NCBI GenBank assembly: GCA_018712785.1
Contig: DVGK01000042.1
Location: forward strand, 1 to 49,934
Reading direction: 5' to 3'
From: Candidatus Choladousia intestinavium
GTDB lineage: Bacteria; Bacillota; Clostridia; Lachnospirales; Lachnospiraceae
DNA length: 49,934 nt
Part shown: one piece after another, positions 8,970 to 45,147 of the stretch
How the letters are laid out: the number at the start of each line of letters is the position of its first letter
How positions within the stretch are numbered: position 1 is the first letter of the stretch
Position numbers and translations under genes: made by a program
Notes under the pieces: generated by a model
Told to the model about the DNA's origin: nothing
Database searches by the model: none
Seen by the model: only the letters and a program-made list of their open reading frames with translations

Positions 8970-11312
8970 ATGAAGCAGAAAGCATACGGGCTCTCCACGG
9001 AGGAAGTCCGGAAAAGAATGGAACAGGGTGAGGGAAACATTACCGCGGCCACAGTGACAAAGACGTATGGACAGATCATAAAGGAAAATGTTTTCACTCT
9101 GTTTAACTTTTTGAATTTTTTAATCGCAGGTCTCCTCTTCGCGGCAGGAGCCTACTCGAACATGCTGTTTATCGCCATCATTCTTCTGAATCTTGTGATT
9201 GGAATCGCGCAGGAATGTAAGGCCAAAAAACTGGTGGATGAGCTGTCCTTGCTGAACCGGCCGGGCGTATGCGTGATGAGAGATGGAAGAGAACAGAAGA
9301 TTGAAACCGATCAGGTGGTCAGGGGAGACTGGCTTCTTCTGGAAAGCGGCAGCCAGATCTGCAGCGACGCTACAGTCCGGGAGGGCAGCCTGGAGGTGAA
9401 CGAGTCTCTCCTTACAGAGGAGAGCGATCCGGTGGTAAAACAGCAGGGAAGCAGCCTTTTATCCGGAAGCTTTGTGATCTCCGGGAGAGCGTACGCGGAG
9501 GTTACGCATGTAGGGAATGAAAATTACGCGGCCCGGCTTGTGAATGAAGTAAAAAAAGAAAAAAAGATTCAGTCCGAGCTTTTAGGATCCATGAAGAAGG
9601 TGACAAGATTTACCAGTATGCTGATTATTCCTCTGGGAATCCTCCTTTTTCTGGAAGCAGTCTGGGCGCGCCGGACACCGGCGGACCAGGCGGTGGTATC
9701 CTCGGCCGCAGCTCTTCTTGGAATGCTGCCCAAAGGGCTGGTGCTGCTGATCTCCGTTTCGCTGGCAGCCGGCGTCATCCGCCTTGCGAAGAAGAGAATT
9801 CTAATACAGAATCTTTACTCCTTGGAAACCCTCGCCCATGTAGATACCCTCTGCCTGGATAAAACAGGGACCATTACAGACGGCAGCATGAAGGTCCGTT
9901 CTGTGCTCCCGCTGGCAGAGCTGCCGGCGGGACAGATGGACGCTCTGGTACAGTCCTATATGGCGGCCTGCGTGGATAATAACAGCACCATAAACGCACT
10001 GAAGGAAAAGTTCCTGCCGGATGCGGTATACCGGGCCGCCCATGTAACTCCGTTTTCTTCCGGAAGAAAATGGGGCTGCATCAGCTTTGAAGGGATCGGA
10101 AGTGTTTTCGTGGGAGCGCCGGAACGGATCCTGGAGACGCTGCCGGCGAATCTTTCCCGGGAACTGGAGCAGGGCCGGCGCCTTGTGGCGATCGGGTATT
10201 CAGGAAGAGAGTGGGAGGACACTGCAAGCCTTCCGGAGGGAATCCAGCCTCTGTATGCCGTAGTGCTGGAGGATACCATCCGTAAGGGAGCGGAAAATAC
10301 ATTGGAATTTTTCCGCAGAGAAGGGGTAGAGGTTAAAGTGATTTCCGGGGATCACGTAAAAACTGTTTCCGCAACCGCCAGGCGTGCGGGACTCAGACGG
10401 TGGAAGGGCGCGGTGGATCTGGCCGCTCTGGGCGAAAGGATTGACTATGAGGAAATCTGTGAAAAATACGCTGTTTTTGCCCGGGTAACCCCGGCGCAGA
10501 AGCAGGAACTGGTAAAGGCACTGCAGAAGAGGGGGCACAAGGCGGCGATGACAGGAGACGGGGTCAATGATCTGCTGGCACTGCGGGAAGCAGACTGCTC
10601 CGTCGCCGTGGCTGATGGAAGCTACGCCAGCCGGCAGCTGGCCCAGGTGGTGCTGCTGGATTCGGATTTTACGCACCTTCCCCAGGTGGTGATGGAGGGA
10701 AGAAAAGTTATTCACAATGTGACCCGAACCGCTGGCGTGTTTTTTATCAAAACCATTTACTCAACCCTTGTATCCCTGATCTGCCTGCTGGGGAATATCC
10801 CCTTCCCCTTTATCCCCATTCAGATTACCCTGGTGGATGCATGCATTGAAGCGTATCCCTCCTTTCTTACCATCTGGGAGTCGGATACCAGGAGAATACA
10901 GGGAGGTTTTCTAAAGACAGCCATTTCCCATGCCCTGCCCTTTGGACTGGCAGTGACGGCTATGATCGGGATTGTCAGTCTGAGCGCGCCCTTTGCGTCA
11001 GGAGAACGGCAGACGGTTATGTATCTGCTTTTGATTTTTATTTCTATGGCGGCTGTGTTTAACAGCTGTATTCCATTCACCAGGCTGCGGGCCTTCCTGT
11101 GCGTGTCCATGGTTCTTGGAACGTCCGCAGCCCTGTACTTGTTTCCGGTGCTGCTTGCGCTTCACCCGGTGACTTCCTCCATGGCCGCGTATACGGCCCT
11201 GGGCGCGGCTGTATCCGTGGTATTCCTCCTGACAGCGGAGAATCTAAGAAAATACTTCAGCAGCAGAAAGGAGAGAAAGAGACTTGACAGAAGCAGAATT
11301 TCAATTTCTTGA
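8970..11312 (+). CDS. Cation-transporting P-type ATPase
   Basis: This 780-residue HAD-type P-type ATPase has an N-terminal cation-ATPase segment (GLSTEEVRKRMEQGEGN), an actuator domain, phosphorylation site D297 in CLDKTGTIT, a hinge motif MTGDGVNDLLALREADCSVA, and about ten transmembrane helices, six of them C-terminal. Two motifs differ from the canonical ones: TGES reads TEES (149-152), and the helix-4 PEGL reads PKGL (254-257), which replaces a cation-binding Glu with Lys. The ion is therefore unclear; related Firmicutes pumps are annotated only as cation-translocating. AGGAGG precedes the ATG inside an inverted repeat. The PAP2 gene starts within its last 29 bases. Confidence 0.92.
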   Translation: MKQKAYGLSTEEVRKRMEQGEGNITAATVTKTYGQIIKENVFTLFNFLNFLIAGLLFAAGAYSNMLFIAIILLNLVIGIAQECKAKKLVDELSLLNRPGVCVMRDGREQKIETDQVVRGDWLLLESGSQICSDATVREGSLEVNESLLTEESDPVVKQQGSSLLSGSFVISGRAYAEVTHVGNENYAARLVNEVKKEKKIQSELLGSMKKVTRFTSMLIIPLGILLFLEAVWARRTPADQAVVSSAAALLGMLPKGLVLLISVSLAAGVIRLAKKRILIQNLYSLETLAHVDTLCLDKTGTITDGSMKVRSVLPLAELPAGQMDALVQSYMAACVDNNSTINALKEKFLPDAVYRAAHVTPFSSGRKWGCISFEGIGSVFVGAPERILETLPANLSRELEQGRRLVAIGYSGREWEDTASLPEGIQPLYAVVLEDTIRKGAENTLEFFRREGVEVKVISGDHVKTVSATARRAGLRRWKGAVDLAALGERIDYEEICEKYAVFARVTPAQKQELVKALQKRGHKAAMTGDGVNDLLALREADCSVAVADGSYASRQLAQVVLLDSDFTHLPQVVMEGRKVIHNVTRTAGVFFIKTIYSTLVSLICLLGNIPFPFIPIQITLVDACIEAYPSFLTIWESDTRRIQGGFLKTAISHALPFGLAVTAMIGIVSLSAPFASGERQTVMYLLLIFISMAAVFNSCIPFTRLRAFLCVSMVLGTSAALYLFPVLLALHPVTSSMAAYTALGAAVSVVFLLTAENLRKYFSSRKERKRLDRSRISIS

Positions 11313-13766: not shown

Positions 13767-13842
13767 GGCGGAACGGAGCAAAGAAAAATTTTCCCGGGCC
13801 GCAGAACGTCTGGAAGAACATAAAAGGAAGGGGAAGAGAAAG

Positions 13843-14718
13843 ATGTGGCTTTTATACGCTGTAGGCTCTGCTTTTTTTGCGGGAGTGACATCCATTCTGG
13901 CCAAAATAGGCATACAGAAGACGGATTCGACTGTGGCAACCGCCCTGCGGACAGTGGTGGTTCTGATTTTTTCCTGGGGGATTGTGTTCCTGACAGGTTC
14001 CCAGACCCAGATCACGTCTCTCGGAGGACAGACCGTGCTGTTTCTGGTTCTGTCGGGTCTGGCCACCGGGGCTTCCTGGCTGTGCTACTTTCGGGCGCTG
14101 CAGATTGGGGAGATCAACAAGGTAGTCCCCATTGACAAATCCAGCACCGTGCTGACCATACTTCTTGCGTTTCTTTTTCTGGGAGAGAGCATCAGCTTTC
14201 CAAAAGGAGTGGCAGTGGCTGCCATCGCGGCGGGAATTTTCCTGATGATTGAACGGAAGGGAGAGCCGGCGGCGCCGGAGAAGCGGTCAAAAACAGGGGC
14301 GGGCTGGATTCTCTATGGGGCAGGCTCCGCTTTCTTTGCCAGCCTGACGGCCATTCTGGGAAAAATCGGAATTACCGGAGTGGAATCCAACCTGGGGACC
14401 GCTATACGGACCAGCGTGGTTCTTGTGATGGCATGGATGATGGTGTTTGTCACGGGAAAAACAAAGGAAATTTCCGGAATCTCCAGAAAAGAGCTGCTGT
14501 TTATCAGCCTTTCCGGGATTGCCACCGGCGCCTCCTGGCTGTGCTACTACCGGGCGCTCCAGGAAGGGCCGGCCAGCGTGGTGGCTCCGGTGGATAAGCT
14601 CAGCGTTCTGGTGACAGTTGTGTTTTCTTATTTTGTATTTGGAGAAAAACTTGGCAGGAAGGCAGCGGCGGGTCTGGTGTTTTTGACGGCGGGAACTGTG
14701 GCCATGGCTGTTTTGTAA
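13843..14718 (+). CDS. EamA-family (DMT) transporter
   Basis: This 291-residue transporter has ten predicted helices in two clearly repeated halves. Each half begins with a near-identical stretch (YAVGSAFFAGVTSILAKIGI and YGAGSAFFASLTAILGKIGI) and contains SGLATGASWLCYFRALQ or SGIATGASWLCYYRALQ. This is the tandem EamA fold of drug/metabolite transporters, which export small metabolites. The substrate cannot be told. A GGAAGGGGAAGAG ribosome region precedes the ATG. It lies between the damaged and the intact response regulators and could be their target. Confidence 0.92.
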   Translation: MWLLYAVGSAFFAGVTSILAKIGIQKTDSTVATALRTVVVLIFSWGIVFLTGSQTQITSLGGQTVLFLVLSGLATGASWLCYFRALQIGEINKVVPIDKSSTVLTILLAFLFLGESISFPKGVAVAAIAAGIFLMIERKGEPAAPEKRSKTGAGWILYGAGSAFFASLTAILGKIGITGVESNLGTAIRTSVVLVMAWMMVFVTGKTKEISGISRKELLFISLSGIATGASWLCYYRALQEGPASVVAPVDKLSVLVTVVFSYFVFGEKLGRKAAAGLVFLTAGTVAMAVL

Positions 14719-15539: not shown

Positions 15540-16316
15540 ATGGGCATTATCGAGAAGATGAGACTGGATGGGAAAAAGGGTTTTGTAACCGGAGCAGCCA
15601 GAGGAATCGGCAAATGTACGGCTACAGCTTTTGCGGAGGCGGGAGCGGATGTGGCCATCGTTGATATTGATTTTGAGGAGGCTGCGAAAACCGCAGCGGA
15701 AATTGCGGAAAAAACCGGCAGAAAGGTGATTTCCATCCGGACGGACTGCACGGACCAGGAGCAGGTAGAGGCTATGGTAGACCAAGTGGTGAAGGAGCTT
15801 GGGGGGCTGAACTTCTGCCACAACAACGCGGGGATCTGTCTGAATGTACCGGCAGAAGAGATGACCTTTGAACAGTGGTATAAAGTCATCAATATTAATC
15901 TGAACGGCATTTTCCTTACAGATATAGCTGCCGGGAAATATATGCTGAAAAACGGCGGAGGTTCTATTATTAATACAGCCTCTATGTCCGCGCATATAGT
16001 AAATGTTCCGCAGCCCCAGTGCGCGTATAACGCATCTAAAGCAGGGGTGATTCAGCTGACAAAATCTCTGGCTATTGAGTGGGCCAAGAGAGGCGTGCGG
16101 GTGAACAGCATCAGTCCGGGATACATAGGGACAGAGCTGACTTTAAACTCTCCCACACTTATCCCGCTGATTGAGCAGTGGAATGCCATGGCGCCTCTTG
16201 GCAGAATGGGGAAACCGGAAGAGCTGGAATCTATCTGTGTTTATCTGGCCGGAGATACCAGCACTTTTACCACAGGGGCTGATTTTGTCATTGACGGGGC
16301 GTTTACCTGTTTCTGA
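15540..16316 (+). CDS. Short-chain dehydrogenase/reductase (SDR)
   Basis: This 258-residue classical SDR has the Rossmann motif TGAARGIG (17-24), NNAG (about 97-100), catalytic S in INTASMS, and Y163/K167 in YNASK. D42 in IVDIDF follows the second strand, which suggests a preference for NAD(H). The overall pattern resembles sugar-alcohol or sorbitol/mannitol-type dehydrogenases (ISPGYIGTEL, then GADFVIDGAFTCF), but the substrate is uncertain. AAAGGAGAAGG precedes the ATG. It is the last gene before a strong terminator, and may be co-transcribed with the response regulator 38 bases upstream. Confidence 0.92.
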   Translation: MGIIEKMRLDGKKGFVTGAARGIGKCTATAFAEAGADVAIVDIDFEEAAKTAAEIAEKTGRKVISIRTDCTDQEQVEAMVDQVVKELGGLNFCHNNAGICLNVPAEEMTFEQWYKVININLNGIFLTDIAAGKYMLKNGGGSIINTASMSAHIVNVPQPQCAYNASKAGVIQLTKSLAIEWAKRGVRVNSISPGYIGTELTLNSPTLIPLIEQWNAMAPLGRMGKPEELESICVYLAGDTSTFTTGADFVIDGAFTCF

Positions 16317-16354
16317 TCTTATTATATTATAATAGAATTTTGCAAGCATACAGA

Positions 16355-16385
16355 GGGCACAGACAGAAGAAAAAAGTCTGTGCCC
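16355..16385 (+). terminator. Intrinsic terminator after the SDR gene
   Basis: GGGCACAGAC and GTCTGTGCCC form a perfect 10-base-pair stem with an A-rich 11-base loop, followed by TTGTTTATTTT. This closes the first region and insulates it from the large cluster. Confidence 0.92.
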
Positions 16386-16633
16386 TTGTTTATTTTCCGA
16401 TATGAAACAGACAGTGACAATGATATTTTGTAGAATCTAATTGGAAAGGGAAGCTGTGAACGAAAAAAGCGGCAGAAAGGAGAGCAAAGTACCTGAAATG
16501 GGAAGAGACGAAGAGTATTAGTATTTGTATAGTTTAAGATTTCCGGGGAATATCCTAATATTTCATGAGAATCAGCACCGCTGACGTGTGTAACGGCAGA
16601 AGTATACTGGGATGAATCAGAAAGGAGAAGAAG
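16386..16633. other. Gap upstream of the large cluster
   Basis: About 248 bases without a convincing gene. It is moderately AT-rich, with TAGAAT and TATAGT as possible -10 boxes but no matching -35 at the right distance. This is the most likely place for the promoter of the large cluster; I cannot name the site. Confidence 0.5.
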
Positions 16634-16996
16634 ATGAAGCAATGGCAGAAGGTGACGTTTCTTCTTCCAAATGGAAAAGAAATTGTGGCAGAAGTCCTGC
16701 CGGAGGTAACGGGCAGAGAAGTTTTGAATTTTCTTACGGAGAGGGGATTTGTGGAGGATATCAGAGGTATGTGCCAGCTTTCTCTGCTGTCTTCCACAGG
16801 GGAGTACATGGATGAGAAAAAAACGCTGGAGGAGTACGGTGTCAGGAACGGCAGCCGGGTCAGGGTTATACAGGAATGGATAGGAGGCAGAGCAGATGAA
16901 ATCCTTTACGGATGTCCATCCGCCCGGGAGGTAGAAGGTATTGTACCCTCCTGTATGCTGGATCCTGTCGGCGGGCCGGAAGAGATTGAACTTTGA
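16634..16996 (+). CDS. Ubiquitin-like (YukD-type) protein with C-terminal extension
   Basis: Residues 4 to about 82 read as a beta-grasp ubiquitin-like fold: VTFLLPNGKEIVAEVLPEV, a helix (GREVLNFLTERGF), then LSLLSSTGEYMDEKKTLEEY and GVRNGSRVRVIQEW. The pattern matches the YukD/EsaB proteins of type VII secretion and the last strands of ubiquitin. Directly after the last strand comes Gly84-Gly85, where ubiquitin has its terminal Gly-Gly. A 35-residue tail follows with two Cys (94 and 107) and a second Gly-Gly (113-114) six residues from the end. The stop codon is flush with an ATG of the radical SAM-JAMM frame. AGAAAGGAG precedes the start. I infer that it is a modifier, a carrier or a modified-peptide precursor acted on by that enzyme. 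Confidence 0.78.
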   Translation: MKQWQKVTFLLPNGKEIVAEVLPEVTGREVLNFLTERGFVEDIRGMCQLSLLSSTGEYMDEKKTLEEYGVRNGSRVRVIQEWIGGRADEILYGCPSAREVEGIVPSCMLDPVGGPEEIEL

Positions 16997-17041
16997 ATGT
17001 GGGAAAAGGAGGATTTTTTAAAGCAGGGAGGGAAAAGAAGG

Positions 17042-18706
17042 ATGAGCGAAAGGCAATATCCCCTAAGGGTTTTGTTTTGGGAAGCTACTTTAAAATGCAA
17101 CGCTTTCTGTGAATTCTGCGGCAGCCGGTGCGGGGAGCGTAGCACGGAAAACGAGCTGACGAAGGAAGAGATCTGCTCGGTTTTTGCTGAAATAGCAGAG
17201 AGGTATGATCCTTCGAAAATCATGATTAATGTTTCGGGGGGAGAACCCCTGATGCGCCGGGATCTGTTTGAAATTATGAGCTTTGCAGACCGGCTTGGAT
17301 ATAAATGGGGAATGGTGACAAACGGCACGCTCCTGAATGAAGAACGGATCCTGGGGCTTAAAAAGAGCCGTATTCGTACAATTTCCGTAAGCATAGACGG
17401 GCCGGAAGAGGTACATGACCGGATCCGCAGCTTTCCGGGAAGCTTTAAAAAAATTGTTCAGAATATAAAGAAGCTTTCGGAAATCAGGACGCTTGAAACT
17501 GTCATGGTGACGACAGTTGTCTCCAAGCATAATCTATCCTGGCTTCCGAACATTTGTGAACTGCTGTGCAAACTTCCGGTACAGGTCTGGAGAATAGGGC
17601 CGGTGGATCCCATTGGAAGAGCTTTGGAACAGGAAAATCTTCTGCTTGATGCAGGAGAGATGAGGCAGTTGTTCGCGTTTATAAAAGAATGCCGCAGAAG
17701 CTCTCTTCCTTTTCAGACAGTAACTTCCTGCAGCCATTATCTGGGAGATTATGAGCTGGCCCTCAGGGAACACTTCTTTCAATGCGTGGCGGGAAAGCAG
17801 ATGGCCAGCATTCTTGCCGATGGAGATATTTACGTCTGCTCCAATGTGCCAAAAATCCCATCTCTCGTTCAGGGGAATGTGAGAAAGAATTCTTTCGCGG
17901 AGGTGTGGGAGAGAGGATTTGAATATTTCAGAAATCCGGAGAGCCGGCGGAAGGGGAAATGTGCCGGATGCGAATTTTTCCCCCAGTGTCAGGCCGACAG
18001 CCTGCATACCTGGGATTTTGAAAGAGAGAAACCAAAGTTCTGTATGCTGGACTATGGTCTGAAGTCCTCTTCAAAGGGAAGTGAGGTGACGGAACTGAAA
18101 GCTGCAGGGTATCAGGAAATTATTTCCAGGTACAAAAAAGGAAAAGAAAAGATAAAAGCCCTTCAGGTAAAGGCCCAAAGCCTTTCACCGGACCGGATCA
18201 TTTTTTCGCCGGAAGCTTTCCGAAAAGTGCAGGAAATTTTTCTCTGGGGACAGGAATGTGAAGGAAACAGAACCGAACGGATTGCGTGCCTGACAGGGCG
18301 GCTTTATCGAAATTCTGAAATAAGCGCTGAAGCTTTTCTGGTCGAGGTACGGGCGGCGGCGGAATTAAAAGCAGAGGATGCTGGTGAGACTCATATGAAG
18401 GTCAATCCGGAGTGGGTAGACCAGGGCCGAAGCCTGGCGGCATGCTGCCAAAGACAGGATGAAATCCTTCTGGGCTTTATCCACAGCCATCCTGGCAATC
18501 TCTCTGTGGCTATGAGCCTGGGAGATTATCAATGGCATAAAAATCTGTACTTTACGGACTGGAGAATGGCTCTGTCTGTAATTATAAATCCAGGGAAGAA
18601 AGAAATTGCGGCGTATACTGGGCCGGCGGCAAACCATAGTGAGCTGACTCTTCTTTTCGGTATAGAAAGAAAAAATGACATAACAGTGCAGTTTGTACAA
18701 AAATAA
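17042..18706 (+). CDS. Radical SAM/SPASM enzyme fused to a JAMM metalloprotease domain
   Basis: This is a 554-residue protein. Residues 8 to about 220 are a radical SAM domain, with C19, C23 and C26 in CNAFCEFC, SGGEPLM for SAM binding, and SIDGPEEVHDRIR. Residues about 235-345 are a SPASM-like region (CVAGKQMASILADGDIYVC, then CAGCEFFPQC and a final Cys). After a basic linker, residues about 395-545 form a JAMM/MPN domain with a full HxHP-x7-SxxD zinc motif: H481, H483, S492, D495; the general-base Glu upstream is not assigned. JAMM proteases remove ubiquitin-like proteins in eukaryotes and in some bacteria. Fusion to a radical SAM peptide-modifying enzyme is unusual, and the gene just upstream encodes a ubiquitin-like protein. 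ATG 17042 (GGGAGGG upstream) is preferred; ATG 16997 is also in frame. Confidence 0.85.
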   Translation: MSERQYPLRVLFWEATLKCNAFCEFCGSRCGERSTENELTKEEICSVFAEIAERYDPSKIMINVSGGEPLMRRDLFEIMSFADRLGYKWGMVTNGTLLNEERILGLKKSRIRTISVSIDGPEEVHDRIRSFPGSFKKIVQNIKKLSEIRTLETVMVTTVVSKHNLSWLPNICELLCKLPVQVWRIGPVDPIGRALEQENLLLDAGEMRQLFAFIKECRRSSLPFQTVTSCSHYLGDYELALREHFFQCVAGKQMASILADGDIYVCSNVPKIPSLVQGNVRKNSFAEVWERGFEYFRNPESRRKGKCAGCEFFPQCQADSLHTWDFEREKPKFCMLDYGLKSSSKGSEVTELKAAGYQEIISRYKKGKEKIKALQVKAQSLSPDRIIFSPEAFRKVQEIFLWGQECEGNRTERIACLTGRLYRNSEISAEAFLVEVRAAAELKAEDAGETHMKVNPEWVDQGRSLAACCQRQDEILLGFIHSHPGNLSVAMSLGDYQWHKNLYFTDWRMALSVIINPGKKEIAAYTGPAANHSELTLLFGIERKNDITVQFVQK

Positions 18707-18834
18707 TCATATTTTTATTAAGAATAACTCTAAACAAGAGAGAATTATGGTAGAAACTAAATGGATTATATGATAAAATGTCGATAAATGCTTTGTATCA
18801 TATTTATATTTATACAGCATAAGGGAAGAGAAGC

Positions 18835-21288: not shown

Positions 21289-21383
21289 GAGGAAAGCACA
21301 TAAAGAAAGCCTGAAGAATTTAAATGGTAGGGCGGGAGCTTCTTTTGGAGGAAGAATTCATATCGAAAATGGAGGGATGCAGT

Positions 21384-22610
21384 ATGGCAGATTTAGGTGA
21401 TACATTGTTGGAAAACGAGCCCTTTATGGGAGGAATCGGAGACATGCCGGGGCAAAATACAAATAAAAGGGTACTGGTTCTGCTGATCGTGGATGCTACT
21501 ACCTCTATGCGTGGGCAGAGCATCGGACAGGTGAATTATGGAATACAGGAATTATTCAGTGAGCTGAGAGAATATGCTTCCTCCAACCTGGTGAATCTGC
21601 AGCTTGGAATTTTAAGCTTTACCAACAGCATCCGCTGGGAGATGGAGCCAAAGGATATTCAGACCTGCTATGATGTTGTGCATATTGATGTGCGGCCGGG
21701 ACTGACTCAGTATGGGGTGGTTTACCATGAGCTGCAGAAGATGCTGAATAAGAAGAATCTCCTGAATTATTCCGGCAAGCAGGCGGCTCCGGTTCTTATT
21801 TTTATGACAGACGGAGCGCCCTCGGATGTTTATCAGGATGATTTGGACGCTTTGAAAAAGAACGGTTACTTCGCCCTCTCCAACCGCTCCGCGATTCTTA
21901 TGGGAGAAGGGGCAAACGATCCAAAAGCACAGGCAGCGGTGAAAGAATTCGTGTCAGACGAAAGCATGATTCTGACCGCAGGCCGTTATACAGATATTGT
22001 ACAGAGTATTAAACTGGCTACGCTGCACACTTTGAAAAATGACTTTCAGGAAACCGGAACGGCAAAAATACGAATGCCAGAGAATGAGCCTTTCGGCGGA
22101 AACAGATCAGAACCAGGGGCAGATCCTTTCGGGGGAAGCGCTCCGGCAGGGGAAGCAGATCCTTTCGGGGGAAGCGCTCCGGCAGGGGAGGGAGATCCCT
22201 TCGGGGGAAGCGCTCCGGCAGGGGAAGCAGATCCCTTTGGGGGAAGCGTTCCGGCAGGGGAGGGAGATCCCTTCGGGGGAAGCGTTCCGGCAGGGGAGGG
22301 AGATCCCTTCGGGGGAAGCGCTCCGGCAGGGGAAGCAGATCCCTTCGGGGGAAGCGCTCCGGCAGGGGAAGCAGATCCCTTCGGGGGAAGCGTTCCGGCA
22401 GGGGAAGCGGATCCCTTCGGGGGAAGCGCTCCGGCAGGGGAAGCAGATCCCTTCGGGGGAAGCGCTCCGGCAGGGGAGGGAGATCCCTTCGGGGGAAGCG
22501 TTCCGGCAGCAGAGGGGAATCCCTTCGGGGACGGTAACTCAGATTCAGAAAAGGATTCCTTTGGGGGAGGCACGCTGGAACTGGAAGATCCTTTCGCCCC
22601 TAAGGGCTGA
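21384..22610 (+). CDS. vWA-domain protein with DPFG repeat tail
   Basis: This is a 408-residue protein. A vWA domain covers about 28-225, with a MIDAS metal site variant D37-A-T39-T-S41 (Thr in place of the first Ser) and the later FMTDGAPSD. The segment just before it, GGIGDMPG, is shared with the vWA proteins at 24622 and 25512. The tail (about 235-408) is a low-complexity run of 12-residue repeats ending in a DPFAPKG motif. vWA proteins of the TerY kind pair with kinase and PP2C in phospho-signalling. ATG 21384 is chosen because GGAGGG lies 8 bases upstream; earlier in-frame ATGs at 21324 and 21369 lack a good site. Confidence 0.9.
   Translation: MADLGDTLLENEPFMGGIGDMPGQNTNKRVLVLLIVDATTSMRGQSIGQVNYGIQELFSELREYASSNLVNLQLGILSFTNSIRWEMEPKDIQTCYDVVHIDVRPGLTQYGVVYHELQKMLNKKNLLNYSGKQAAPVLIFMTDGAPSDVYQDDLDALKKNGYFALSNRSAILMGEGANDPKAQAAVKEFVSDESMILTAGRYTDIVQSIKLATLHTLKNDFQETGTAKIRMPENEPFGGNRSEPGADPFGGSAPAGEADPFGGSAPAGEGDPFGGSAPAGEADPFGGSVPAGEGDPFGGSVPAGEGDPFGGSAPAGEADPFGGSAPAGEADPFGGSVPAGEADPFGGSAPAGEADPFGGSAPAGEGDPFGGSVPAAEGNPFGDGNSDSEKDSFGGGTLELEDPFAPKG
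22122..22517 (+). repeat. Eleven tandem 36-bp repeats encoding DPFGGSxPAGEx
   Basis: Eleven head-to-tail 36-base units, each encoding DPFGGS[A/V]PAGE[A/G]; the last unit has PAAEG. Degenerate units flank them on both sides (EPFGGNRSEPGA before, NPFGDGNSDSEK after). Units are almost identical at the DNA level, so copy number should vary by slippage while the frame is kept. It is coding sequence and not a CRISPR array. Confidence 0.95.
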
Positions 22611-41225: not shown

Positions 41226-41438
41226 ATGGATGACTATTCAAACTACAAAGACGGAGACCTGGAAATCTGCGATGTACTGTGTGACGCATGCGCCTTCCGG
41301 ATTCCGGAGGATTTATCACGATGCAGGAAATATCCGCAGGGGAAACCGGAAGAGACGCTGGATCCGGATTATTTCTGCCCTCAGTTTGCGGTGACAGAGC
41401 TGGATTTTGACAGGACAGGGGAAGAGAGCCATGGATGA
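41226..41438 (+). CDS. Small acidic Cys-rich protein
   Basis: This 70-residue protein has CDVLCDAC, then a single Cys in LSRCRKYP, and Cys in YFCPQF, which could bind one zinc or iron. It is strongly acidic. It lies 27 bases after the toxin and overlaps the FtsK-like gene by 8 bases. Its size, acidity and position suggest an immunity protein or an adaptor between toxin and ATPase; neither is shown. ATG 41226 has GAGGGATG upstream; GTG 41211 is in frame. Confidence 0.75.
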   Translation: MDDYSNYKDGDLEICDVLCDACAFRIPEDLSRCRKYPQGKPEETLDPDYFCPQFAVTELDFDRTGEESHG

Positions 41439-44400
41439 ATTTTTGCAGAAAAGCATGGAGTCTGTACCGAACATGCGGGGAGAACTTTTAGGCATGCTGG
41501 AGAGATTTGACAAAAGAATTATGGTTTTCCGGAAGCAGTATGAGGAGCTCTGCCAGCGCCAGAGCCAGGATCTGGCGAATCGGGCAGGCAGCAGCAAAGG
41601 AGCGCTGAATGCCCTGGCCCGTCAGCAGGAGCAGGCGAGAAGGAAGCTGGAGCAGGAGAGGGACGCAGTAATTCAAAAGCTGGAGGATGAGGTACGGAGC
41701 GCCCAGCAGAAAAGGATTCGCCTGGATCAGCAGACAGAGGAAAGCTATCATCAATGGGAAAAAAACTATCAAAACCAGCTGGATGCCAAGAATTCCGAGG
41801 ATTACAGAAGAAATCGGGAAAATGACAAATTTTTAAATGAATTAAGGACAGTTCGGGACAGTGTAAGAAATATTTTGGGGGAGTCCAGGTATGACAGAAT
41901 TGTACAGGGTACGTCAGCGGCGCCTTGCCGGGACGATGCCCAGGCTCAGGCAGTTCTGCGCAGATATGAGCAGGGAAACCGAACAGAAACAGAGGAAGAG
42001 ATTTTGAGAATACACAATTCTCTTCTTCGCAGACTGCTCTTTTCCGGGAAAAGGAACCGGCTGTGCTGCAGTCTGGAGCAGATGATCCTGGATGTGGGAC
42101 AGGCCAACGATATTATCCGCCGGATGCAGAACGCAAGGCAGGCAGATCAGGCGGCAAAGTTTAACCTGAAAAAACAGGAAAAGCGAAAGGAAGCAGATCA
42201 GGCGAAACAAGGAGCCTCGGCGGCTTTTGCTCAGGTAAAAAGCAGATGCGGCCAGGCTGTTTCCATGAATCAGAAGAAGTACGGAGACAAGCTGGCAGTG
42301 CTGCAGAAGCAGCAGAAGGATCTTTATATACAGAGAGCCGCGTATTTCAGCCAAGAGTATAAAAAAGCAGAAGAAAACTGGAAAAATGAAAAGAGAGAAG
42401 CACAGAGAAAATTCCAGGCAGACATGGAAACGGCGTTTCCAGCGGTGGCTGTGCGGGAAACAGTAAATAAAAGCTGGAGCTCCACCATCCAGTACAGTGT
42501 GAAGAATTTCGGCGCCCTGCCCCCGGCGGGAGGGGAAGCTGCCCGGAATGTGCCGGTGGGAGAGATGTATATCAATGTAGGGCGATGGTATGCGGGCGAG
42601 AGCGGAAAGGTACTTATGGAACTGCTTCCGCGCCGGTATGGGGTATTGTTCCGCAAAAACGCGCAGAACGGGAAGATAATTCCGGATCCCGGATGGATCC
42701 GGCTTCCCTTTTGGCTGTCTTTAGATCAGGGGGAAAGTCTGCTGGTGCTTTGCCCGGATTCTCTTCAGGAAATTATGGAGTCCCGTCTTCAAGGGGCGGC
42801 TATGCGGATCCTTTGGTCGGTTCCTGTAGGGCAGAGTCAGTTTCTGCTGGGAGATTCAGACAAAATCGGCTCCTTCTCCGGCTTTGCTTCTCTGGATCCG
42901 GCTCTGTACAACGCAAGCGGAACCACTTCTTACAAAAGTATTTTAGACGGAAATCAGGTATGGAGCACGGCGAATGACATCCGCCAGCGGATTTCCAACA
43001 ATCAGATGCGCTATAACGATATCGCCGGGCAGATGGGAGGAGTCTCTTCTCTGAGAGAGTACAATTTTTCACATCCCATGAACCAGAGGAGTTATGAGAT
43101 TACCATTCTGCAGAAATTTCCGGACGGACTGGATGAGGCCAGTATCCGCTCTCTGCGGATGATGAGCTCTGACTGTGGAAAATGGGGATATTCCTCGATC
43201 CTTTCGGGAAGCCAGAGCAATTTTAAAAGCATGGACCCTAAGCTCTCCAAGATTTTCGAAGAGCTGAAGAAAGCCCAGACCCTTTGTCTTTGGATGAAGG
43301 ACAAAAATTGGTTCACAGTGAAGCAAAGCGCCTTTCCCATGGAGCGGGGCTGTCAGGTGGCCTTTTACCCGGCTCCGGAAAACAAGGTTCTTTTGGAGAT
43401 GAAGGAGAAGCTGCGGGAGGAGACTGAAAAGGCATCGGGCAATAAGATTGACTTTGAGCATGCCAAGGAAATCTGCCCGTCCAAAGAAAGACGCTACAAA
43501 GACCAGGCGGATTCGGGGGTGATAGTGCCCATCGGTTATCTGGACGGAGGGGAGCCCTGCAGAATTATCTTTGATTATGCCAGAGTCCATACAATTATTA
43601 ACGGCGATACGGGCTCCGGAAAGACAAACCTTCTTCATATTCTGATTACGAATATTCTTCTGCGATATCCGCCGGAGGAAGTCCAGATGTATCTGATCGA
43701 CTTTAAGCATGGGACGGAATTCCGCAAATACATTAATTATAATCTTCCCAGCTTTAAGGCCATCAGCATCTGCAATGAGCCGGAGTTTGCCCTGCAGATT
43801 CTCCAAGCAGTGAGAAGGGAAATGGAAGACCGTGTGAATAAATTCGGCAACACCATAACGAATATTCAAAGCTATAATGAGACTGCGCCCAAAAAGATGC
43901 CAAGGATTATTCTGATTCTGGATGAATTATATGAGCTGGTCATGGAGGCAAAGGCTTCCAAAGATGTTTCCAACGTCCGGGAGCAGGTTATGCGGCTGAT
44001 GCAGGGCTTTTCCATTCAGGGGAGGGCGTATGGGATTCATATGGTGATTTCAGGACAGAATCTGACGGAAATCCCGGAGATCAAGACCATCAAGGAGTCC
44101 TGCAACACCCGGATTGCCCTGCGGTGCAGTGAGCAGCAGGTGGAGTCCCTGATTAATAAGGATGCAAAAGACCGAATGCTGAATATTAACGAGAGAGATA
44201 AAGGAGCATGCGTTGTTCAGCTGGAGAAAACAGGAAAACCTCTCATTGAACATACGGCGTATCTGGATCCGGATTACGCCCATATTCGTCTGTTGGAAGA
44301 AATCCACCGCCATTACTGCCAGAAGCATCAGTATGGCAGTACTCGGGTGATGACTACAGACATCAGTACGAATCCCAATCACATCTATCAGAGGTATCTG

Positions 44401-45147
44401 TTGGCAAGGGATGATTCTCAGATCTTGCCGGACTGTCTCTGGCTGGGAGAGAAAATTCTGATCGATGCCTCGGAAGGGCTTCATCTCCGGGGAAAAAATC
44501 TCTGGATTGTCGGAGGCGTCTCTCAAACCGGCCAGAAGGCAGGCGAAAGCGTTCTGTTTTTTGGGCTTCTTTCTCTGCTTCTGCAGCAAAAGCGGGATAA
44601 GGGAATTCGGATTTGGTTCTGCAGCGGGGAAACGGGAAACGCCCATCCTGTGGGAAATGGAGAGCGGGCGGCCGAGATGGCGCTGGTTCTCAAAAACCAG
44701 GTTCTTTACGCCACAGGAGATCAGATGCTTCAGGCCCTCCAGTCGGTTTACGGGGAGCTTTCAAAACGCAGAGCGGCAGAAAGCGGGCCTGCCCGGTCTC
44801 CAGCCTATTTTATTCTGGAAAGACCTGAGGGAAGAATTGCCCAGAATCCAAAGGCCCTTCAGGTTCTTCAGGAGATTCTGCTTTACGGCCCTTCAGCAGG
44901 GATACAGGTGCTTTTATGGACCAGAGAACCCCAGAAGCTGGCACAGCTGCATCTGCCCCAGCTTCCTTTTGCCGAGAAGCTGCTGCTGGAGATGGAATCC
45001 GGAGCCTATCAGAGTATTCTAGGCGTTAAGCTCATGGCAGAGCCTAAGGGGTGGCACGCAGTCACCTCAGAAGGAGTCCGAATGAGAATTTATAATTTGC
45101 CGGAAAAGGACTGGATCGAATCTATGATTCTCCGTCTTGGAAGCTGA
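41431..45147 (+). CDS. FtsK/SpoIIIE (EssC-like) ATPase
   Basis: This is a 1238-residue protein. Residues 1 to about 370 are coiled coil. A middle region (about 370-690) is unassigned. The FtsK-type motor has Walker A GDTGSGKT (725-732), LIDFKHGTEFRKY, and Walker B IILILDELYEL, with SGQNLTEIPEIKTIKESCNTRI and LRCSEQQVESLI. A second C-terminal ATPase-like domain (about 1010-1220) has a degenerate P-loop, GGVSQTGQKAGES. EssC of type VII secretion likewise has several FtsK domains of which some are degenerate, but this protein lacks EssC's membrane helices and FHA domains. It is probably recruited to the membrane by the pseudokinase or the lectin-like protein. CAGGGGAAGAG precedes the ATG. Confidence 0.9.
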   Translation: MDEFLQKSMESVPNMRGELLGMLERFDKRIMVFRKQYEELCQRQSQDLANRAGSSKGALNALARQQEQARRKLEQERDAVIQKLEDEVRSAQQKRIRLDQQTEESYHQWEKNYQNQLDAKNSEDYRRNRENDKFLNELRTVRDSVRNILGESRYDRIVQGTSAAPCRDDAQAQAVLRRYEQGNRTETEEEILRIHNSLLRRLLFSGKRNRLCCSLEQMILDVGQANDIIRRMQNARQADQAAKFNLKKQEKRKEADQAKQGASAAFAQVKSRCGQAVSMNQKKYGDKLAVLQKQQKDLYIQRAAYFSQEYKKAEENWKNEKREAQRKFQADMETAFPAVAVRETVNKSWSSTIQYSVKNFGALPPAGGEAARNVPVGEMYINVGRWYAGESGKVLMELLPRRYGVLFRKNAQNGKIIPDPGWIRLPFWLSLDQGESLLVLCPDSLQEIMESRLQGAAMRILWSVPVGQSQFLLGDSDKIGSFSGFASLDPALYNASGTTSYKSILDGNQVWSTANDIRQRISNNQMRYNDIAGQMGGVSSLREYNFSHPMNQRSYEITILQKFPDGLDEASIRSLRMMSSDCGKWGYSSILSGSQSNFKSMDPKLSKIFEELKKAQTLCLWMKDKNWFTVKQSAFPMERGCQVAFYPAPENKVLLEMKEKLREETEKASGNKIDFEHAKEICPSKERRYKDQADSGVIVPIGYLDGGEPCRIIFDYARVHTIINGDTGSGKTNLLHILITNILLRYPPEEVQMYLIDFKHGTEFRKYINYNLPSFKAISICNEPEFALQILQAVRREMEDRVNKFGNTITNIQSYNETAPKKMPRIILILDELYELVMEAKASKDVSNVREQVMRLMQGFSIQGRAYGIHMVISGQNLTEIPEIKTIKESCNTRIALRCSEQQVESLINKDAKDRMLNINERDKGACVVQLEKTGKPLIEHTAYLDPDYAHIRLLEEIHRHYCQKHQYGSTRVMTTDISTNPNHIYQRYLLARDDSQILPDCLWLGEKILIDASEGLHLRGKNLWIVGGVSQTGQKAGESVLFFGLLSLLLQQKRDKGIRIWFCSGETGNAHPVGNGERAAEMALVLKNQVLYATGDQMLQALQSVYGELSKRRAAESGPARSPAYFILERPEGRIAQNPKALQVLQEILLYGPSAGIQVLLWTREPQKLAQLHLPQLPFAEKLLLEMESGAYQSILGVKLMAEPKGWHAVTSEGVRMRIYNLPEKDWIESMILRLGS

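Follow-up and report, generated by a model that had tools for sequence, protein, structure and literature searches.

A predicted ubiquitin-fold protein with a YGCP tail beside a radical SAM–JAMM fusion enzyme: a candidate substrate carrier

A gene pair and its genomic surroundings

The window (the whole stretch of DNA that was analyzed, 49,934 nucleotides) carries on its + strand two abutting ORFs. The upstream one (16634..16996) encodes a 120-residue protein, referred to here as UbL, that is predicted to combine a ubiquitin fold with a disordered tail (residues 82–120), and the downstream one (16997..18706) encodes a 569-residue fusion in which domain matches place a radical SAM/SPASM enzyme ahead of a JAMM domain. 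The ATG of the fusion gene directly follows the stop codon of the UbL gene.

Both genes lie within a 2.4-kb stretch (16313..18709, + strand) in place of which the syntenic locus of a sister species (G707) has 111 bp. The G707 locus has the same order of SDR, transglutaminase-like, kinase, vWA and next gene as the window, at 67–94% identity, with neither UbL nor fusion between the conserved flanking genes. A second such pair, described below, is found in genome G684, flanked by what look, by eye, like genes for carbohydrate enzymes. Judged by gene content, the pair is a separate 2.4-kb cassette that behaves as a unit gained or lost, since it is absent from the syntenic G707 site and has other neighbors in G684.

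Downstream, on the same strand, is a cluster (18835–41198) whose first genes are syntenic in G707. Its members include a transglutaminase-like protein, a protein kinase, several vWA proteins, PP2C-type proteins, a small radical SAM protein, a ClpB-like AAA protein, a second kinase, a HerA/mad8-like ATPase and an ADP-ribosyltransferase-like protein, some of these annotations resting on domain matches below cut-off. The cluster looks like a phosphorylation-regulated conflict system; PADLOC, run on 9 proteins, returned matches to parts of it (kinase, AAA, HerA/mad8 and SspH types) and no complete system. One vWA-like protein (21324–22610) contains 11 DPFGGS repeats, and beyond the cluster lies a 1246-residue FtsK/SpoIIIE-type ATPase (41407–45147) with partial SspH and mad8 matches.

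Predicted folds and domains of the two proteins

AlphaFold2, run on the single UbL sequence, gave one good prediction out of five (mean pLDDT 58.7 for the best model and 33–38 for the other four). The best model contains strands at residues 5–10 and 16–21, a helix at 27–36, and strands at 47–52 and 74–82; from residue 82 to the end at 120 the pLDDT falls below 50, and the tail is predicted to be disordered. A Foldseek search of the PDB with this model returned 389 matches at E ≤ 0.001, and the best 50 of these were nearly all ubiquitin, SUMO, NEDD8 or ISG15 (top E 1.2e-5; TM by target mostly 0.75–0.87 for the single-domain targets among these 50). We thus agree with an earlier note, made from the DNA sequence, which had proposed a beta-grasp pattern: residues 5–82 are predicted to adopt the ubiquitin fold, with the qualification that the model rests on that one prediction and that by sequence the protein is far from known families. 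Its match to the Pfam ubiquitin model is weak and below cut-off (E 0.024), and its match to a redesigned ubiquitin sequence has an E of 0.0029. We rejected a YukD-type protein of a type VII secretion system as its identity, there being no YukD among the Pfam matches up to E 1. A plasmid search with UbL gave no match.

In the fusion enzyme, the radical SAM domain (17087..17566, + strand; PF04055, E 1.6e-20) carries the cluster motif C34-x3-C38-x2-C41 and is followed by a SPASM domain for an auxiliary Fe-S cluster (17783..17974, + strand; PF13186, E 6.7e-9); both matches pass the Pfam cut-offs. Among NCBIfam models the best match is TIGR04133 (E 9.5e-88), at 294.4 bits, short of the curated cut-off of 425. 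Two related fusions introduced below, from genomes G266 and G684, also fall short, at 243.2 and 267.1 bits, while an Alistipes enzyme (locus L001) passes at 566.7 bits.

The JAMM region (18164..18703, + strand) contains Glu427 and H496-x-H498-P-x7-S507-xx-D510, so that the complete HxHPx7SxxD motif announced in the earlier note is literally there, at residues 496–510. The window fusion alone matches Pfam Prok-JAB below threshold (E 0.033), and a search of its own genome with that model missed the domain. When the JAMM regions of four fusions were aligned and used as a profile against the PDB, all 23 sequences found at E ≤ 10 were JAMM proteases, the best being AMSH-LP (E 1.5e-5). All four retain the Glu, His, His, Ser and Asp of the zinc site, and all four have one extra residue, relative to AMSH-LP, in the loop from HxHP to SxxD. 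A single-sequence structure model of the region failed (pLDDT 35). By its zinc-site residues and homology, we assign the C-terminal domain to the JAMM/MPN+ metalloproteases, as a putative protease, and the radical SAM/SPASM–JAMM fusion that the earlier note had described is borne out by these matches together with the Pfam domains above cut-off.

Two other JAMM proteins came up in passing: a 402-residue protein in genome G616 (locus L041, 7324–8532) with an equally one-residue-longer HxHP loop (HTHPNNLSVFMSGTD) and, by eye, no radical SAM part, and a 254-codon frame in genome G537, both matched by a two-row JAMM profile in the class-genome search. A plasmid search with the JAMM part gave no match.

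Relatives of the fusion and the motif in their partners

We searched for further fusions with the JAMM part in 299 genomes of the family, with the two-row JAMM profile in 391 genomes of the class, and further in 47 genus, 397 family, 4 genus g266, 391 class, 195 G266-relative and 199 phylum genomes; these sets overlap. Radical SAM–JAMM fusions number four in all: those of the window (569 residues), G684 (665 residues), G266 (525 residues) and G821 (at least 440 residues, the gene being cut by a contig end). A scan of GTDB genome contigs found 12 Alistipes-type relatives of the fusion, 0 of 12 with a JAMM domain. Among the 703 records from a plasmid search with the whole fusion, three of which were examined, none covered 80% of it, and viral contigs gave no fusion match, another such search giving 22 distant radical SAM loci. 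The JAMM region of the G684 fusion is longer than the others (at about 9030–9070 of locus L039), and a 37-base stretch there is repeated, at 89%, at positions 13827–13863 of the same locus.

In a tree built from 34 loci plus 5 outgroup rows, the four JAMM fusions group together as a single clade (support 97/92), within which the window groups with G684 (100/98) and G266 with G821 (100/100). The outgroup did not fall on one side of this tree, and L022 and L028 joined a short zinc-ribbon row (L112) through a very long branch, for which the program issued a long-branch warning; a single change suffices to account for the JAMM group in 98% of 200 bootstrap trees.

UbL and fusion genes adjoin in two divergent loci, the window and G684, and in opposite orders: the G684 partner, of 127 residues, overlaps the end of its fusion gene. 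The two partners are 28% identical overall. We infer the ubiquitin fold of the G684 partner solely from its alignment with UbL, because it has no Pfam match and a two-row profile of both proteins found nothing relevant in the PDB. These two are the only UbL-type partners known. Beside the G266 fusion, the flanking genes instead encode two lipoproteins of 67 and 63 residues, which contain YYGCPNSRRVKKLN and YYGCPNSKKVKKLN near their ends, and beside that of G821 there is one 62-residue lipoprotein with YYGCPNSKKVRKLN; a UbL profile found nothing up to E 1 in either genome (G821 being 71% complete). The suggestion that each such fusion would have a ubiquitin-like neighbor therefore fails for two of the four. 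What all five carriers do have is the sequence YGCP, 18–30 residues from the C-terminus, and on this comparison the constant partner of the fusions is the YGCP motif near the C-terminus rather than UbL, since the G266 and G821 fusions have YGCP lipoproteins and no UbL.

The conserved part of the UbL tail (residues 88–109, DEILYGCPSAREVEGIVPSCML; 16895..16960, + strand) includes the proposed modification site, Y92-G93-C94-P95 (16907..16918, + strand), 29 residues from the C-terminal end. Compared with the G684 partner, 14 of 22 residues are identical in this tail as opposed to 20 of 98 in the rest of the protein (Fisher p 1.3e-4, for one pair of sequences), and the core common to both tails is LYGCPxAxExxGxVPxCML. 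This difference in conservation favors the tail as the likely site of modification, as the earlier note had it, and two further details of its description were also correct: Cys94, Cys107 and Gly113-Gly114 are all present in the tail, and Gly84-Gly85 aligns with the ubiquitin Gly-Gly in a match to ubiquitin-eL40 (E 0.091). Neither Gly-Gly pair is kept in the only other UbL-type partner, that of G684, which has none after its last strand, so the proposed cleavage after a Gly-Gly is not supported.

NCBI pairs the TIGR04133 enzymes with TIGR04134, a "radical SAM-associated putative lipoprotein" (NCBIfam). We looked for motif neighbors of TIGR04133-like enzymes by a fixed rule (same strand, 40–300 residues, within 400 bp, Y[GA]xP or YGPxP), the YGxP motif itself having been defined after part of the neighbors had been viewed. 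The rule found one in 31 of the 34 loci and, among 13 more loci from the class, in 11 (42 of 47), and a YGxP-type lipoprotein missed by the rule at L105, added by eye, brings the count to 43 of 47; many of these loci are close kin (12 from Alistipes, several of one genus). The remaining loci are L097, L110, L119 and L122. As a control, other radical SAM loci from the same genus were put through the rule, and 1 of 17 had a motif neighbor, also under a wider rule; the background among ORFs elsewhere in the 34 loci is 43 of 1887. From the 29 relatives matched in the family search, the 19 at 267 bits or above were analyzed; 10 at 141–186 bits (L062–L071) stand outside these counts. A lower-scoring Agathobacter relative (L146, 137 bits) has no motif neighbor. 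Three of the more distant SPASM enzymes (L062, L063 and L065) have neighbors with tandem KYGVP or KYGYP repeats, and the YGxP theme may extend beyond TIGR04133.

The motif varies among neighbors (Y-G-x-P, YGPxP, YAPP) and is often repeated, as in VYGPPEWF and the like. Its carriers are mostly lipoproteins: 16 of the 26 carriers listed conform to a simple lipobox pattern, and two proteins at L098 and one at L100 are lipoprotein-like by eye. The others are the two UbLs, a DUF805 membrane protein (L096) and four zinc ribbons, of which L040 (fused to carbonic anhydrase) and L102 were recognized by Pfam and L107 and L112 by a CxxC pattern. Since the carriers differ in kind, the motif is what they have in common. 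The named TIGR04134 proteins beside TIGR04133 enzymes carry it as well, as YGSP or YGMP (EYGSPHANFQIKG in Parabacteroides, CYGMPENYYSIKG in Treponema). These two and the carrier at L127 are the only ones of 13 put to NCBIfam that match TIGR04134, so the carriers do not make up a single family; the window UbL, the G684 partner and both G266 lipoproteins gave no such match. At L102 (2993–4397) and L051 (548–1200; genome G029), two proteins that look WXG100-like by eye adjoin a radical SAM enzyme and its zinc-ribbon carrier, which has the motif as YGPKP.

The cluster motif CX3CX2C is found in 44 of the 47 enzymes; the exceptions are L095, truncated at a contig end, the interrupted L111, and L110, from which the motif is gone. 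In this last case (L110, 5020–5913, genome G041; L059, 1068–1505) an enzyme without cluster cysteines has a partner that reads RSGPPEM as opposed to VYGPPEDM elsewhere, a joint decay of enzyme and site; this one case points to the Tyr as part of the site. The YGCP form is confined to the JAMM loci, occurring in neighbors of 4 of 4 of them and of 0 of the 43 loci without JAMM (a motif neighbor being present at 39 of these), and this pairing of JAMM with YGCP counts as one evolutionary event because the four fusions form one clade.

A carrier with a modified tail, weighed against other readings

Our preferred reading, which we regard as rather probable when taken whole, is that UbL serves as a carrier and that both halves of the fusion act on its YGCP tail, the radical SAM half by modifying it and the JAMM half by processing it. 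UbL would be a carrier protein and not a conjugated modifier, its folded domain presenting a flexible C-terminal tail with Tyr-Gly-Cys-Pro. The radical SAM/SPASM half, a relative of the TIGR04133 enzymes, would oxidatively modify the YGCP site, probably at the Tyr, with a bond to or from that residue and the Cys as a possible partner. The JAMM half would act as a zinc hydrolase and cleave at or next to the modified segment, with the C-terminal stretch removed or released. The parts of this reading differ in strength: that the tail is the radical SAM site seems to us highly likely, while the chances that the JAMM half cuts the carrier are about even. What the JAMM half recognizes is probably the YGCP segment and not UbL, because two of the fusions appear to serve carriers without a ubiquitin fold. 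The domains, their linkage, the conserved motif, the exchange of carriers and the restriction of JAMM to YGCP loci are seen in the sequences; we infer YGCP as the substrate site, and likewise the chemistry, the cut site and the final role. The "ubiquitin-fold leader for a modified peptide" offered in the earlier note comes close to this.

The JAMM half may instead be a docking domain that holds UbL or its tail during the radical SAM work and is not a protease here. JAMM domains of AMSH and Sst2 bind ubiquitin; these proteins are the best PDB relatives of our JAMM profile, and two loci combine UbL with JAMM. Yet all four fusions keep the zinc-site Glu, His, His, Ser and Asp, and two of them adjoin carriers without the ubiquitin fold, and we think docking rather unlikely, although it is the strongest of the alternatives. 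Less probable again is an E1-independent use of the ubiquitin fold in which the YGCP tail would be activated or crosslinked by the radical SAM half and then cut by the JAMM half, leaving an altered C-terminus that acts as a modifier, cofactor or reactive carrier.

A classical modifier, matured by JAMM after Gly84-Gly85 and conjugated by an E1 and E2 encoded elsewhere, is very improbable. JAMM peptidases mature ubiquitin-like precursors in other systems, Gly84-Gly85 does align with the ubiquitin Gly-Gly, and ThiF-family proteins are matched in the genomes (1 in the window's, 2 in G684, 3 in G266, 1 in G821). But the one examined, that of the window's genome, is encoded on a different contig and has TcdA as its best fit (144.7 bits, short of the cut-off of 304), and among the 21 proteins scanned at 16634–45147 there was no E1 or E2, in line with the earlier note, which had seen neither in the window. 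Such a modifier would also give no explanation for the radical SAM half or for the link to YGxP, and we reject Gly-Gly maturation given the G684 partner, which has no Gly-Gly after its last strand, and the G266 and G821 genomes, where no UbL was found up to E 1. We give still less credence to a sulfur-carrier route for a cofactor, with a ThiS/MoaD-like UbL, even though known sulfur-transfer pathways do combine UbL carriers and JAMM trimming with radical SAM enzymes, and a Cys lies within the motif. That route needs a terminal Gly-Gly, which is not conserved, and an E1, for which the ThiF-family matches lie elsewhere in the genomes and none was found beside the genes, and the family closest to the enzyme is one that has lipoprotein partners; we rejected this route. 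An equally slim chance attaches to the idea that the pair belongs to the downstream kinase/vWA/phosphatase/AAA cluster and acts there: it is on the same strand and only about 130 bp from the next gene, but this candidate was rejected too, as G707 keeps the SDR, transglutaminase-like, kinase and vWA order without the pair, and the G684 pair lies among other genes.

The carrier reading places the system closest to TIGR04133/TIGR04134, with which it shares the best NCBIfam match of its enzyme, an adjacent small partner and YGxP in that partner; it differs in score (294 versus 425 bits), in having UbL and not a TIGR04134 lipoprotein, in the fused JAMM domain and in the Cys of the motif. YGxP as a partner feature of these systems is, as far as we know, proposed here, from sequence comparison, and not by NCBI. 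The JAMM half resembles the deubiquitinases AMSH, Sst2 and BRCC36, its best PDB matches, in keeping the Glu, HxH and SxxD; unlike them, the fusions have an attached radical SAM/SPASM enzyme and a loop one residue longer, two of the four lack a UbL partner, and no ubiquitin conjugation genes were seen nearby. Bacterial ubiquitin-like conjugation operons with a JAB peptidase, compared by description, share with the window a UbL with a C-terminal extension beside JAMM, whereas here no E1 is seen beside the pair, the Gly-Gly is not conserved and the enzyme is a radical SAM protein.

Radical SAM RiPP pathways with repeated motifs, such as TvgB/TVGG, likewise have a short, often repeated motif beside a radical SAM/SPASM enzyme (PMC9062424); the difference is that here the motif is YGxP and sits on folded or membrane-anchored proteins. 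Our literature search, which covered few subscription papers, found nothing on TIGR04133, TIGR04134, or YGPP or YGVP with radical SAM, nor on a UbL with a radical SAM–JAMM enzyme. The wider system is thus known as a pair of NCBI families, relative to which the UbL carrier and the JAMM fusion are new.

A ubiquitin fold serving as substrate carrier, with a radical SAM modification enzyme and a JAMM hydrolase in the same polypeptide, is a combination that we did not find in the literature searched. It prompts one to ask why a domain of the deubiquitinase type was acquired in a single clade, and precisely where a cysteine sits in the site. More broadly, YGxP, found here on lipoproteins, zinc ribbons, a membrane protein and UbL, is suggested as the substrate site of enzymes to whose family NCBI gives a name but no function, and with such a site the family could be tested on short tails.
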